A stretch of DNA of 64,000 bases, from the NCBI RefSeq assembly GCF_000835495.1, contig NW_015622544.1, positions 4,058,855 through 4,122,854 on the forward strand. Reading direction: 5' to 3'. The notes below the pieces were generated by a model. The model ran no database searches. It worked only from the letters and a program-made list of their open reading frames with translations, and was not told the DNA's origin. The stretch comes from Cladophialophora immunda (lineage: Eukaryota; Ascomycota; Eurotiomycetes; Chaetothyriales; Herpotrichiellaceae). This document shows positions 6,098 to 25,165 of this stretch, piece by piece (within the stretch, counting starts at the first letter, position 1; each line of letters starts with the position of its first letter). The position numbers and the translations under genes are program-made.

Positions 6098-7425
6098 CTA
6101 TAATTCCTTCACGGGCCAACTGAGAGTCCTCTGGATGAAGATCCCGACGTCTTTCCCATTGATTCGACGATTCTGATCGTAGACAAACGCCTCATCGTTG
6201 TCACCGCGGTGTAGTGCGAATGCAGGGAGGCGTGCCGCGTCCACCCCAAGCGGCTCGAGCAAAAAGGGCAGCTTTGTTGTATCGAGGGTCACAAAATTGA
6301 CCTTGCCTTTGTACTTGAGAGCTATATGCTTCAGTGATTCGGCGATGGTCTTTCTCTGCTGTTCGGTCTCCGCAAGAATAAACGCAAGGGGCAGGCCAGA
6401 CTGGAGGTTTGGTCAGCAGGGAAACATATGAGAAAAAGTGAACGGTGTCTGGAACCTTTGTGTGGTCGATGTATGACTTCAAGTCCAACCTGCCGACTAA
6501 TGGCGTCGAGATCTTTCCCGCGAACCGGAGGATAGGTCCTGTTTCAAGCTCGTCACGATATACCGGCTTGACTTCGTCAAGAGCATTCCAAACAACCACA
6601 AAGGGTGGTTGGGCATTCTCTTCTTCGGCCAAGGTTAGGTCGGTGGTCGTTGCCACGAAGAACTTGCCACGGAGTTTGTCGGCCACTTGGGATATCACCG
6701 TCGACAATTGAGAAGTCTCATCTTCGGAGTCCGCAAATAGAAGCAGTGGGATGTCCAAGGACTTCAACGTGTCGAAGATTTGCCTGTCGGGCTGGGAAAA
6801 CAGTGGCACTATAGTCTGGAGCACTTTGGTTACGATGCTGGACAGGTTAACTATTGCAAAGTCATCAGCCAAAAGCTACACTCACGAGGAAGACTTGAAT
6901 CTCCGGCGATATCGAATCTGTTTTGGGCCATGAAAAAGCCGAATAGTCGGGTAGGAAGTTATATCATATGAAGTACAGGCATCGGGTTCCGTCGCGCAGT
7001 TGACAAGTAGCAATTGGGCCGACGGCCATGGTTGCAGTGCCTCATGGGCAAGTTCTAATTCAGGCGCCAAATCTTTGCATCGGTCACTGGGGAATGATCA
7101 ATCCAGGGCTCACGACGACGAAGCGGTATTTGGTTTAACGTACTACCAAGGCTGCGACGACGAGTGTGTGAGTCGAGGCGATCAGAGCTGGATAGAAAAG
7201 AGGCAACGCACCAGACAAACTAGAATTCCCAAGGTATCTTTAGTGACAGCAGACATATGGGATGGCTCATAACTCACAGACAGCAATGACTATGTTGTCC
7301 TTGCTCGATGATGCTGACAGAAGGTCTTTCAACGTTCGGGGATCGGTATACTTAAGCTCAGCCTTACAAGCATGGATGAAGCAGGAGACTGCGACCCATA
7401 TTCGCAACAGCATCTGAATATCCAT
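6098..7425 (-). CDS. Protein disulfide isomerase-like ER protein (one thioredoxin domain plus b-type domains)
   Basis: The start at 7425 gives a good signal peptide (LLRIWVAVSCFIHACKA), then the thioredoxin beginning ELKYTDPRTLKDLL...NIVIA. Downstream exons read CKDLAPELE, then SYPTIRLF with the cis-proline, followed by two thioredoxin-fold segments (KPVWxx-like PVYRDELETGPILRFAG and VNFVTLDT...LPAFALHR). The C-terminus is VKEL, close to the KDEL/HDEL ER-retention signal. Clear exons are about 7425-7282, 7086-6886, 6837-6456 and 6400-6098. Between 7281 and 7087 splicing is uncertain. A micro-exon at 7219-7212 would create a CDRC active site, but it needs a weak GTCTGT donor; the last intron also uses a weak GTTCCA donor. 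The predicted product is about 345 residues, shorter than classical PDI. It would act in oxidative folding in the ER lumen. It is divergent from a prolyl-4-hydroxylase gene 277 bp away. Confidence 0.8.
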
Positions 7426-7702
7426 TTCGACTGTAGGTGTCGACTCTGAGGCAGCATGGCTTGTGTACAAAGTGGTGATATCCTTTGTCCTCAAAAGCCA
7501 ACAGGATACATATCTCACTAGATGATATCTGCAGGTACAGGAGGAGCCAGTCGGCTCTTTTACCGAGAGCACGATGGCATTCTGCTGTGCGCCTTCAAGA
7601 TCGACCTCTTGGAACAAAGATCTGACCAGCCCTTTCTTACATATCCAAATGTTCCTCAGAGCTCTCCGCTGGTTAAGGTAGTCCCTCGCATACGCATATC
7701 TG
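7426..7702. promoter_or_regulatory. Shared divergent promoter of the PDI-like and P4H-like genes
   Basis: Only 277 bp separate the two start codons, which point away from each other. Both promoters and both 5' leaders must lie here, so joint regulation is plausible. No specific transcription-factor site was recognised. Confidence 0.6.
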
Positions 7703-8553
7703 ATGCCACACATGACACCAGCTGGGAGATTGTCTCTCATACTACTACCTGTCCTGGCGGTCATTCTCGGCGCCGGCCGCTTGTATTCCGACTGGGACTT
7801 TCTGAATCTCTGGCAGAAGAAAAACGCTGGCCATGGCAATGGACCAAAGACATATCTACTGTCAGAAGAGCCCTTGGTGGTGTACATAAAAGACTTCATC
7901 ACTCCCCAAGAAGCGACTCATCTGGTCCAGCTCGCGTAAGTGCACAACCTCCGCATGCCCAATTGCAGTTCCCAGGAGCTAGAGCCTCTGAGAAACTTTG
8001 GTATTCCAGCGAACCTCGATTCAAACCTTCCGTCCTCTGGACCGATGAAGGCAAAGTCCACCGAGACTCGGCCTATCGATCCTCCATGACGGCCAAGCTC
8101 CCCAACGACCAGATCATCCGACAAATCGAGGACCGCGCCCGTGCCTTTCCCTTTTACAAGGCCGTGGGTGAATTCCAGCCCCTGGTCGTGCAGAACTACG
8201 GCATCGCAGGGCAGTATCGAGACCATTACGACTGGTACGGCGACGCCAATGCGGTTGGCGGCAATGTGGCGTCGACCTTCTTCGTGTACATACACGCAAA
8301 TTGCACTGGGGGAGGTACAAATTTCCCTCGACTGCCGCCACCATCGGAGGAGGACGAGTGGTGGTGCCAGTTTATCGATTGCGATCGGCCCTTCGAGGAC
8401 GGCGTCACCTTCAAGCCCATCCAGGGGAATGCCGTGTATTGGAATAACCTCGGTGGCGATGGCAAGGGCAACCCCCAGACCTTGCACGCTGGGATGCCAG
8501 TGACTTCTGGGAACAAGATGGGGCTGAATATGTGGACCTGGCAGTCCATCTAA
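7703..8553 (+). CDS. Prolyl 4-hydroxylase alpha-type 2-oxoglutarate/Fe(II) dioxygenase
   Basis: Two exons, 7703-7935 and 8010-8553 (intron GTAAGT...CCAG, 74 nt), give 258 residues. An N-terminal hydrophobic anchor (LSLILLPVLAVILGAG, about residues 11-26) suggests an ER or secretory location. The P4H core follows: VVYIKDFITPQEATHLVQLA, EPRFKPS, RSSMTAKL, then the iron-binding HYD (HYDWY) and the distal His in TLHAGMPV, with NKMGLNMW supplying the basic 2-oxoglutarate-binding residue. Joining at 8010 gives the family-typical LAEPRFKPS. The enzyme would hydroxylate proline in a secreted or membrane protein; the substrate is unknown. The neighbour is a divergent PDI-like gene. Confidence 0.9.
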
Positions 8554-9372
8554 GGCTCAAGCAACGACGAGCATTGATGTCCCCACTCATTAGCTCTGAG
8601 CATTCAAGAAGCTGGAATTTGAGAGTTAGAAAGAGGCAATAGTAAACCAGGCGGCAGAGGTCAACACGTATTGTTTCCCGAACAACAAGTACAGACTCTG
8701 GCGGACCTATGCGGACCTGTATTAAGTACCCAGGTATACAAGTAATTACTCGCGACCAGACCGGGTAATCTGGACGGGAGTTCTGCCACGAGTGGACTGC
8801 CGAAAGGACTAGAGGCCGCAACGATCGAATATCGGTAGGACGATACAGGTACACTCGGAGAGACAAGTCAAAATGAGGTTCGACATGGTCCCCGACACGG
8901 CAGGCGAAAGTTCAGTCAAGAACAAGACAGAGCTAGAAGGCTGCCCGGGAAGAAGCGAGGGTCGATCTGGCAGAAACATTAAGGAGGACAGACTGGCGGT
9001 GTCTCGGTGGCCTGTAGAGTGAGTTGGAGCGGATGGAGGTCGGAAAGGGGAGAGAAAATAGAGGCCGGAAGTAGAGTCTTGGACGGTTGATAATCGCAGG
9101 TCACGATTTACTATTCGAGGGCGCCCCAAGGAGAGGCTGTGCGAGACAGTGCAAGATACCAAAGATGAAGTCACTGGCCGATATAATTTGCTCGCCTGCG
9201 CATCGGGACCAAGATCCACAATGCAGTTCAAACCCCACGCACAAGCCGACGTCACAATCGCGCCCCTCATTTCATGGACACACATTCACACCAGCCGCGT
9301 GCCTACCGCCCTGTAATTGCAACCGCTCATGTTACTAGCAATTCAGTCACACCGGACTAAGACATCGTCGCA
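8554..9372. other. Intergenic region between P4H-like and DOM34 genes
   Basis: About 820 bp without a credible coding frame. It carries the 3' end of the P4H transcript and the promoter of DOM34. Nothing else was recognised. Confidence 0.55.
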
Positions 9373-10680
9373 ATGCGCCTGGTCAAGCGAAATATCAATG
9401 ACGACGGGAGTGGGAGTGTCACGTTATGCCCTGAAGAACCTGAGGACATGGTACGTCCATCACCTCTCCGCTCCTGTCGCGCTCATTCTGAAAAGTTCCA
9501 TTAGTGGCATGCTTACAACCTCATTCGACCCACAGACCTTCTCACTGCCTCTGCTATACGACGAGTAACCACCGAGTCCTCGTCCACGGGATCTACGTCA
9601 TCTCAACGAGTCCACACGAACCTCACTATACGGGTCAAGTCCTTGGATTTCGACCCCCAGGTTGGGCAACTGCACGTCTCCGGCCAGATTGCCAGAGAGA
9701 ACAGATATACAAAAATAGGGCAATTCCATACCCTGGACCTCGAGCTGCAGCGTAACTTTACCCTTGAGAAGGTAGTCGAAGGCAGTGGTGGGGCCGAGGG
9801 TTGGGACAGTGTCGCCCGGGCGCAGCTGGAAGAGGCCATAGACCCTTCGAGGGGCACTGAAGCGGTCGCAGTCGTCATGCAGGAAGGCCTGGCCAACATT
9901 TGCTTCATCACACAATTCCAGACCGTCTTGAGGCAGAGAGTCGAGGTCTCGGTCCCGCGGAAGCGGACAGGCGCCGGAAGATCCGCGGATCACGACAAAG
10001 GCTTGACCAAATTCTACAGTACCGTGCTGGACACGCTGATGAGACAGCTTCAAGGCCTGATGGAACACAAAGACAGCAGCGTGAGTTTCCCGATCTTGCT
10101 TGCGAGCCCCGGGTTCACGGCCGCCGGCTTCCTGAAACAGATCACTGAGACCGCCGTTGCAAAAGGGGACAAAATGCTACAAGACTTGGTGAGGCGGAAC
10201 GCTTTTATTGTGATCCACAGCAGCTCCGGGCACCTGCACAGTCTCAACGAGGTTCTCAAAAGTCCAGAGGTCCTGGTGAGGTTGAAGGACACGAAATATG
10301 CTCGGGAGACTGCATTGATGGACGAATTCTATGCTCTCCTACGCAAAGACGACGGACGGGCATGGTACGGACCCAGAGAGGTCGAGACCTGCGTAGAAAA
10401 GGGGGCCGTGGGTCGTGGGGGAGGGGTGCTCTTGATCAGCAACTCCTTATTTCGGAGCCAGGACGTGGCCACGAGACGGAGATGGGTCAAACTCGTGGAT
10501 CAAGTGAGAGAAGTGGAGGGCGGAGAGGTCAGAGTACTCAGTAGTGACCACGAGAGCGGAAGGCGATTGGAGGGCCTGGGAGGCATCGCGGCCATCCTGA
10601 CATTTCCTATCGAAGACATAGAATCGGAAGACGAGGACGAGGAAGAGGAACAGCCTGAACATGGCGGCGAAGAATCATAG
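9373..10680 (+). CDS. DOM34: Dom34/pelota ribosome-rescue factor
   Basis: Exons 9373-9450 and 9505-10680 (intron GTACGT...TTAG, 54 nt) give 417 residues. Exon 1 encodes the diagnostic start MRLVKRNINDDGSGSVTLCPEEPEDM, and exon 2 continues WHAYNLIRPTDLL. The central and C-terminal eRF1-like domains are present (FPILLASPGFTAAGFL, IVIHSSSGHLHSLNEVL, DTKYARE, GGVLLISNSLFRS, GGIAAILTFP). It lacks the GGQ motif of true eRF1, as expected for pelota. With Hbs1 it binds the A site of stalled ribosomes and promotes subunit splitting in no-go and non-stop decay. It ends in an acidic Asp/Glu tail. Confidence 0.96.
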
Positions 10681-24436: not shown

Positions 24437-24443
24437 GACAGGT

Positions 24444-24454
24444 TGGCCGAGTGG
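24444..24454 (+). promoter_or_regulatory. A box of the tRNA-Leu internal pol III promoter
   Basis: TGGCCGAGTGG matches the A-box consensus in the D arm. Confidence 0.85.
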
Positions 24455-24474
24455 TTCAAGGCGGCAGATTTAAG

Positions 24475-24494
24475 CCCTTTTTTCAAAGGAAGAA
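24475..24494 (+). other. Canonical tRNA intron after position 37
   Basis: Twenty nucleotides between G37 of the anticodon loop and C38. Removal restores a 7-nt loop (TTTAAGC) closed by the GCAGA/TCTGC stem. Confidence 0.85.
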
Positions 24495-24519
24495 CTCTGC
24501 TTTCCGAGAGGAAGCGTGG

Positions 24520-24588
24520 GTAAGTAACATACATAGACACCTCGCCAATATGCCATCGCCCAACAAACAGTCATTAACAGAAGGATAG
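24520..24588 (+). other. GT-AG intron-like insertion in the tRNA-Leu T-stem
   Basis: The 69-nt segment begins GTAAGT, contains CATTAAC as a possible branch site about 10 nt before the end, and ends GGATAG. These are fungal pre-mRNA intron signals, and the length is within the range of the protein-gene introns in this window. Precise GT-AG removal rejoins GTGG to GTTCGAACCCCAC and gives a perfect T arm. One-base sliding at the junction (G on both sides) leaves 24521-24589 as an equal alternative boundary. Confidence 0.8.
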
Positions 24589-24598
24589 GTTCGAACCC
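24588..24598 (+). promoter_or_regulatory. B box of the tRNA-Leu internal pol III promoter
   Basis: GGTTCGAACCC matches the B-box consensus. Its first G is the last base of the insertion, so TFIIIC can still recognise the interrupted gene. Confidence 0.8.
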
Positions 24599-24622
24599 CA
24601 CACCTGTCATTTCTTCCCGTTC

Positions 24623-24627
24623 TTTTT
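24623..24627 (+). terminator. Pol III terminator of tRNA-Leu
   Basis: Five consecutive T bases lie 14 nt after the discriminator base, suitable for pol III termination. An interrupted T tract starts at 24610. Confidence 0.7.
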
Positions 24628-25165
24628 GCTTTCCTTTTTGGGGGTTTCTAGGGCTCTATCAAGTCCGAAAGTTCTAGAGAAAGATGGACCTCGACACCTT
24701 GAATACTACTTTTATCCTAGATAGTTACCTAATGTATGGGTACCAAAAGTTGGTATTGGCTTGCTGCATAGCTGGCTACTTCAATCACGCCTCGTAGCTC
24801 TGGTCGCTTTTCCTTTTCATATCATATGCATCTAGCGTTGAGAAGGGATGGAAGCACCCTTCTGTCGACGAAGGAATCATGCACGTTCATCGTCGAATCA
24901 AACCAGATATCGCCTCCAACCGAGCCTGTCCAACATGCCGTCCACCTTCTGGCACCTTGTTGCTCTTCCTTCTTTTTGCAGAGAGATACAGAGGCTCTTG
25001 ATCAAGAACTAAAAATGGCATCCCGCGCTGTCCTGGTTCAGCCTTGCAGGCTACCTGTCAACGCAAGCGCTCCAATATCCTTGCTTGTCATCGATAGAAG
25101 TTCGTGAATTCATTACTACCTAGAGAGAAGCTCGCCATCTATCCAGCTCTAAACCTCGGGCCATC
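24628..25165. other. Intergenic region between tRNA-Leu and the AAA ATPase gene
   Basis: About 540 bp with no conserved frame. It includes the 3' UTR of the minus-strand AAA gene. Confidence 0.5.

Follow-up and report, generated by a model that had tools for sequence, protein, structure and literature searches.

Putative spliceosomal introns in at least 13 tRNA genes of Cladophialophora immunda, including tRNA-Leu(UAA)

Textbook tRNA introns are removed by the SEN endonuclease (nuclear) or by self-splicing. The window, as we call the whole 64,000-nt stretch of C. immunda DNA analyzed here, holds a tRNA-Leu(UAA) gene with a GT-AG insert inside its T-stem, which raises the question of whether a tRNA could be processed by the spliceosome. 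Judging from the sequence, we consider it very probable that a U2-type spliceosomal intron here interrupts a nuclear gene that works and is apparently present in one copy, and that no fewer than 16 introns of this kind, this one included, are spread over at least 13 tRNA genes.

An interrupted tRNA-Leu(UAA) gene

The original prediction placed a 69-nt insert at positions 24520 to 24588, in the T-stem of a complete tRNA-Leu(UAA), and these coordinates proved exact. ARAGORN recognized no tRNA in the genomic sequence and, after removal of the insert, returned tRNA-Leu(taa) with a 20-nt intron. Over all deletions at the locus, several products with odd variable loops received higher ARAGORN scores than the GT-AG product (115.4 versus 110.6); because of this poor ranking, a purpose-written strict cloverleaf scorer was adopted. 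By this scorer, the stems after excision are paired at 7/7 (acceptor), 3/3 (D), 5/5 (anticodon), and 5/5 (T) positions. Deleting every segment of 30 to 100 nt around the gene gave 10,120 distinct products, of which 20 scored at all and a single one reached 20/20. This product corresponds to four equivalent placements of the 69-nt deletion, since GGT is repeated at both ends, and GT..AG is one of the four. Rfam at gathering scores gave no match at the locus. The only window tRNA above the Rfam cut-off is an intron-free tRNA-Arg(ACG) at 63949-64020, which extends beyond the window end and has a run of 11 T's 20 nt downstream.

The signals claimed for the insert, namely, GTAAGT at the start, CATTAAC close to the 3' end, and TAG at the end, are all present (Table 1). 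The 20-nt intron at position 37 was found as well, but it holds a run of six T's (T6, 24478-24483) that was missing from the original prediction. The A and B boxes were assigned by consensus and are what we take to be the internal promoter; the B box was expected to survive the interruption, and it is indeed complete in the unspliced gene because the 69-nt intron ends in G. These observations support the original interpretation that an mRNA-type (spliceosomal) intron is the best reading of the insert.

Table 1. Elements of the tRNA-Leu(UAA) gene (window positions) and GT-AG introns of the other interrupted tRNA genes (contig handle and position; "B box" where the position is that of the B box). 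Intron sites are in mature numbering, as counted in this analysis.
Feature	Position	Strand	GT-AG intron	Basis
tRNA-Leu(UAA) exon 1, nt 1-37: acceptor 5' strand, D arm, anticodon 5' half	24437..24474	+		cloverleaf fit; ARAGORN on spliced sequence
A box TGGCCGAGTGG, presumed internal pol III promoter, unbroken	24444..24454	+		sequence
Canonical 20-nt anticodon-loop intron (SEN type)	24475..24494	+		cloverleaf fit; ARAGORN sets it 2 nt earlier
T6 run within canonical intron, possible premature pol III stop	24478..24483	+		sequence
Exon 2: nt 38, anticodon 3' strand, 15-nt variable arm, T-stem nt 1-4 (GTGG)	24495..24519	+		ARAGORN; cloverleaf fit
Leu-UAA GT-AG intron, putative spliceosomal type	24520..24588	+	69 nt, 52/53	sole full cloverleaf among 10,120 products
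Branch-site-like CATTAAC; putative branch A 24577; 11 nt onward to intron end	24572..24578	+		sequence
B box GGTTCGAACCC, presumed, whole in unspliced gene	24588..24598	+		sequence
Exon 3: last T-stem nt, T-loop, T-stem and acceptor 3' strands, discriminator A	24589..24609	+		ARAGORN; cloverleaf fit
T5 run just 3' of gene, probable pol III terminator; second T5 24635-24639	24623..24627	+		
Arg-UCU	C1:6133390	-	59 nt, variable loop	
Glu-UUC	C7:3603014	-	49 nt, after anticodon stem	
Glu-CUC	same 3-kb locus as Glu-UUC	-	54 nt, D-loop 15/16	
Ile-UAU	C7:2113473	-	57 nt, acceptor stem 3/4	
Pro-UGG	C5:274576	-	56 nt, 53/54	
Asp-GUC_b	C3:5795289	+	61 nt, T-loop 55/56	
Asp-GUC_a1	B box C1:4485474	-	53 nt, 24/25	
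Leu-CAG	B box C2:407380	+	63 nt, 9/10; 55 nt, 29/30	
Pro-CGG	B box C2:6127157	-	57 nt, 8/9	
Lys-CUU	B box C3:2715168	-	56 nt, 7/8; 57 nt, 13/14; 52 nt, 68/69	
Ala-AGC	B box C4:1057822	-	53 nt, 7/8	
Leu-UAG	B box C4:1408873	-	58 nt, D-loop 15/16	

Intact Leu(UAA) copies elsewhere had been named in the original prediction as the mark of a dead gene. The 42.2-Mb assembly (39 contigs) was searched with three whole-assembly patterns, two of them tolerating up to 3 mismatches, with two D-loop lengths covered. No second UAA-anticodon Leu gene, and no copy of the gene without the insertion, was found by these patterns, which detect an uninterrupted copy with a near-normal D arm and miss one broken between the A box and the anticodon. 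The remaining matches were Ser(UGA), Ser(CGA), and Leu(CAA), as named from cloverleaf fits. As an exact pattern, the Leu 5' half had 0 matches in prokaryote contigs and 0 in viral contigs. A dead Leu(UAA) gene was rejected: no intact Leu(UAA) was found by the three assembly patterns, and the stems are perfect. UUA accounts for 25 of the 8,184 codons in stop-to-stop frames with Pfam hits in the window, for example, once in a pelota-like (eRF1-domain) frame and once in an NPR2 frame. By established decoding rules, the reading of UUA requires a UAA anticodon, so either the window gene works or an undetected one does. The NPR2 protein of the window is 95% identical to one recorded for C. immunda and 92-93% identical to those of Fonsecaea erecta and F. 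multimorphosa; its DUF7025/AAA protein is 98% identical to one recorded for C. immunda. These identities mark a black yeast of the Chaetothyriales.

GT-AG introns across the tRNA gene set

Further GT-AG insertions in T arms, which the original prediction proposed to seek, were found in Pro(UGG) and one Asp(GUC) gene, and ten more genes are interrupted elsewhere. Thirteen of the 36 tRNA genes analyzed fit a strict cloverleaf only after removal of one to three GT-AG introns; the other 23 are uninterrupted. The 16 introns are 49 to 69 nt long (median, 56.5 nt) and lie at positions from 3/4 to 68/69, covering the acceptor, D, anticodon, and T stems and several loops, with 0/16 in the anticodon loop. 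All 13 genes score 18.5 to 20 of 20 after splicing, penalties included; imperfect stems are seen in Ile(UAU) and Lys(CUU) (anticodon, 4/5 each) and Ala(AGC) (acceptor, 6/7). A canonical intron also fits in 12 of the 13, the exception being Asp-GUC_b. The second exon of Lys(CUU) measures 6 nt, and in the same gene CGGC past the third intron was predicted from the 5' strand GCCGGGG with two letters visible and was then found.

The 36 genes come from Rfam-derived and B-box loci, with L027 (below the family cut-off) and L164 left out; a feature table of 35 genes omits Ala-CGC (L102), which counts among the 36. On the genome, 63 of 935 candidates for Rfam RF00005 were scored, which hence is no census. 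Listing the B box GGTTCRANTCC over the genome gave 179 matches (155 for the reversed-pattern control), of which 165 were fetched; the excision scan was without match in seven fetched late (L190-L196), and 14 of the 179 fall outside the sample. The 36-gene sample is probably biased toward intact genes. Whether a gene carries the GGTTCRANTCC box does not depend on introns in its other parts; of the 21 genes found with this box, 9 are interrupted and 12 intact. The scan would miss genes that have more than three introns or weaker signals. The omitted L164 (C7:2067341, plus strand) resembles part of a tRNA: its T arm (CCTGG TTCGAAT CCGGG) is good and CTGACTTTTGAT looks like an anticodon arm, with no D arm seen beside it. 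It could be a tRNA gene split by several introns or in some other way.

Could such fits arise by chance? Exhaustive deletion in four constrained cases, Leu-UAA, Ile-UAU, Pro-UGG, and Asp-GUC_b (7,371 to 10,120 products per case), gave one top product each, with GT-AG ends in 4/4. With 4, 1, 2, and 1 equivalent placements and equal base use, the chance of GT..AG in all four is about 2 in 10^9 for loci that were preselected for their GT-AG look, so the test was not blind and control end-pair scans are the fairer one. A relaxed scan of 352 locus-strands, with intact-cloverleaf loci set aside in real and control scans alike (e.g., 9 of 11 CA..AG matches), recovered 13 genes by GT-AG excision. The control end-pairs CA..AG, GT..TC, TG..GA, GA..AG, and GT..CG yielded no gene beyond the 13, and GT..CG yielded none. 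They reached only the Arg-UCU, Glu-UUC, and Glu-CUC loci, where the unconstrained length of a loop lets other excisions give a cloverleaf as well; for the remaining 10 genes, only GT-AG excision did so. A chance origin of the cloverleaf fits was rejected on the basis of both tests. ARAGORN scored the spliced form above the unspliced form in 13/13 genes and gave the expected isotype in 8/13; for Arg, Ile, Leu-CAG, Pro-CGG, and Lys, the isotype differs, with the anticodon and canonical intron placed otherwise. Five of the 13 unspliced genes were called at lower scores, Arg (tct) and Pro (tgg) with the correct isotype and one long intron, and unspliced L020, L023, L024, and L025 pass the Rfam tRNA cut-off though interrupted.

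The splice signals are uniform. GT..AG ends, required by the scans, are present in 16/16 introns. The 5' sites read GTAAGT (6), GTGAGT (5), GTATGT (2), GTATGC, GTAAGC, or GTAAAT (1 each), so that GTRAGT accounts for 11/16. The branch motif, for which the scans required a CTRAY-like sequence over a wider range than that observed, is CTAAC in 14, TTAAC in 1, and CTGAT in 1, and 10 to 15 nt separate the branch A from the intron end; the 3' ends are CAG (9), TAG (4), and AAG (3). Such signals are those of the usual mRNA intron of filamentous fungi. In the window, the one homolog-supported mRNA intron, in an AAA gene (26219-26152, minus strand), has GTGAGT..GCTAAT..CAG, a comparison with an n of 1; motif-picked "coding" introns were a noisy control, with 13 in the real versus 9 in the reversed sequence. 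The extended GT..AG ends, the branch distance, and exact excision restoring the RNA are among the features that mark a U2-type intron, a type to which these inserts would belong.

An empty site is provided by two Asp(GUC) genes. The mature sequences of L058 and L150 are identical, their flanks and canonical introns differ, and L058 has GTAAGT..CTAAC..CAG, with no added bases, exactly where L150 is uninterrupted. This pair sets the intron boundaries independently of structure. With L150 intact, the fungus could perhaps do without the interrupted Asp copies. L026 differs from both: the GUC-anticodon (Asp) genes have two quite different bodies, each with C38 and G73 in our own numbering. Glu(UUC) and Glu(CUC) lie within about 1 kb of each other on the same strand (L023, C7 about 3602200-3603150, minus), with different intron sites.

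The Leu(UAA) intron has no second copy in the assembly, and a burst of near-identical introners was therefore rejected as its source. Among the 16 intron cores, the best pair did not exceed the chance level, being equalled by 29/200 and 62/300 shuffles. Their mean similarity is slightly raised, by about 3 SD over simple shuffles, and is equalled by 5/300 dinucleotide shuffles, which makes a shared makeup or distant kinship possible. It is unlikely that identical introners spread in a recent wave. Introns gained one at a time, such as through reverse splicing, would be consistent with the data.

Transcription, processing, and function

We propose that pol III, acting from the internal boxes, would transcribe the interrupted gene in full as far as the downstream T-run, and that the spliceosome would excise the GT-AG intron(s) ahead of other processing. 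The tRNA body would then fold, RNase P and RNase Z would trim the ends, and the anticodon intron would be cut by SEN and joined by tRNA ligase. The spliceosome is placed first because, until the introns are out, the acceptor, D, anticodon, or T stem that they interrupt cannot pair. We infer spliceosomal cutting, splicing before trimming and SEN cleavage, and the charging and use of the products.

The terminators are kept. A run of five or more T's (T5+) lies within 30 nt downstream of 13/13 interrupted and 22/22 tabulated intact genes, compared with 1.4% of random window 30-mers, and no such run occurs inside any of the 16 GT-AG introns. Internal promoters are less constant: introns break up or shift the A box in several genes (e.g., Leu-UAG, Glu-CUC, and Lys-CUU), and one breaks the B box of Asp-GUC_b. 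Transcription by pol III could be weaker as a result. The T6 run in the canonical intron of Leu(UAA) is the longest T-run within any of the 35 tabulated tRNA genes and exceeds the first downstream run (T5) of several tRNA genes here, so that much transcription might stop there. It may limit expression, or the fungus may need longer terminators.

These features bear on an improbable alternative in which the spliceosome acts but the interrupted tRNAs are transcribed by pol II within longer capped transcripts. Spliceosomes work mainly on pol II products, pol II would pass the T6 run in Leu(UAA), and several genes have a displaced or split A box; nevertheless, every interrupted gene has T5+ directly 3' of it and none inside its GT-AG introns, a pattern that argues for pol III. 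Moreover, passages of PMC10484740 describe the removal of an mRNA-type intron from the U6 RNA of fission yeast, which is made by pol III.

It is very unlikely that the interrupted genes are dead pseudogenes and that intact copies elsewhere do the work. The intact Asp(GUC) gene, the T6 run in Leu(UAA), and the statement in passages of a review that arm insertions in eukaryotic tRNA genes are mostly pseudogenes (PMC4090602) are compatible with such decay. However, stems are perfect or nearly so in 13/13 genes, and splice signals are intact in 16/16 introns. No second Leu(UAA) was found by the pattern searches, and there are few genes per anticodon: apart from Gly-GCC (2) and Asp-GUC (3), each elongator anticodon is represented by a single gene among those found. 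Both Glu genes found (UUC and CUC) are interrupted, as are both CUG-reading genes found (Leu-CAG and Leu-UAG), and CUG is the commonest Leu codon in the Pfam-hit frames of the window (240/702). No intact Glu, Leu-CAG, or Leu-UAG gene was present among the 21 GGTTCRANTCC-box genes (165/179 box matches fetched); this census is partial and could have passed over intact substitutes for interrupted genes. Function is supported by these features taken together: stems and splice signals are intact, terminators are kept, and substitutes are lacking among the genes found.

More doubtful still is the view that the GT-AG ends are incidental and that the inserts are SEN-cleaved ectopic introns like those in tRNA genes of archaea, nucleomorphs, and the red alga Cyanidioschyzon merolae. 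T-arm, D-arm, and acceptor 3/4 introns are known in those groups, in archaea via BHB-type splicing (passages of PMC4090602), and the central helix at Arg-UCU pairs at 4/4 positions. Even so, 16/16 introns combine GT..AG with CTAAC, TTAAC, or CTGAT at a near-constant distance, none of which SEN needs. When seven introns were tested for a BHB at the GT-AG points, the central helices paired at 0 to 4 of 4 positions, with 3/4, 1/3, and 0/3 in the test of Leu-UAA. The SEN/BHB reading was rejected, a complete BHB being present in 0/7 introns tested at these points and an anticodon-loop position in 0/16.

Group I or II or other self-splicing introns, or an assembly artefact, have a negligible chance of explaining the data: we found no point in their favor, group I and II introns are much longer than 49-69 nt, Rfam detected nothing at the window locus at gathering scores, and sixteen different inserts with common signals make assembly error very unlikely.

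With splicing of pol III transcripts by the spliceosome as the preferred reading, it is likely that in this lineage the spliceosome is an obligatory tRNA processor, acting on one third or more of the tRNA genes examined, with up to 3 introns per gene and a 6-nt internal exon. The reading of UUA, CUG, and both Glu codons would require it, followed by SEN. If this is true, translation would depend directly on the spliceosome via essential, mostly single-copy tRNA genes. The genes would also serve as a natural system in which to ask by what route an uncapped pol III transcript comes to the spliceosome and what defines a very short exon, and would add a new case of intron gain in genes without a reading frame.

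Comparison with known systems

Common tRNA finders do not model genes of this kind, and many would be missed or misread, as were some of the 13 by ARAGORN. Counts of 30 to 73 tRNA genes are low for filamentous fungi. Published counts are 30 for F. erecta (by ARAGORN), 38 for E. mesophila, 58 for C. bantiana, and 64 and 73 for two Exophiala genomes (relevant parts of PMC5640708, PMC8709033, and PMC5003357). Undetected interrupted genes could account for part of the low tRNA counts in Chaetothyriales. According to its passages on intron detection, tRNAscan-SE 2.0 looks for noncanonical introns in archaea, with BHB models (PMC8450103).

Canonical introns handled by SEN and tRNA ligase sit in nuclear pre-tRNA, as do the introns described here. 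Passages of a 2025 paper present endonuclease and ligase as the route of removal of eukaryotic tRNA introns (PMC12621601). However, canonical introns lie at 37/38, whereas those found here range from 3/4 to 68/69 and have GT-AG and branch signals; since 12 of the 13 interrupted genes also have a canonical intron, two systems would act on one transcript.

In archaea, nucleomorphs, and C. merolae, as here, tRNA introns occupy many positions, several can occur in one gene, and a high share of genes is affected; for C. merolae, passages of one paper give 34 of 43 tRNA genes as disrupted (PMC3978253). The archaeal and C. merolae ectopic introns are explained in passages of a review by BHB-type motifs and SEN (PMC4090602), and the splicing route of the noncanonical nucleomorph introns is left open in the literature, as far as the relevant parts of two sources go (PMC4090602; PMC3978253). 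In contrast to the BHB-type introns of archaea and C. merolae, those of C. immunda have spliceosomal signals, with a complete BHB in 0/7 tested.

Fungal nuclear rDNA and snoRNA genes likewise have mRNA-type introns in noncoding RNA genes. The hosts of these spliceosomal introns are pol I or pol II transcripts. An mRNA intron in the nuclear 18S rDNA of fungi is the subject of a reference cited in the part of PMC11782384 concerned.

The parallel named in the original prediction, mRNA-type introns in pol III-transcribed U6 genes of some fungi, holds for fission yeast, whose U6 intron is described with citation of Tani and Ohshima 1989 and 1991 in passages of PMC10484740. In fission yeast and some other fungi, as here, a GT-AG intron is removed from a pol III transcript. 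U6 differs in being a spliceosome component whose intron is thought to have been reverse-spliced near the catalytic site, whereas here the hosts are tRNAs, at many loci and positions. The U6 gene of C. immunda itself (L039, C3:4237854-4237954, minus strand) is a single match covering the whole model and, unlike that of fission yeast, has no intron. The original prediction held that spliceosome-dependent tRNA genes are not an established class, and we likewise recognized no report of spliceosomal introns in tRNA genes in the open-access literature, a scope outside which most subscription papers fall. As far as can be seen, then, this tRNA intron class is without precedent and is present at scale, while the machinery is known and splicing of a pol III transcript has a precedent in U6.
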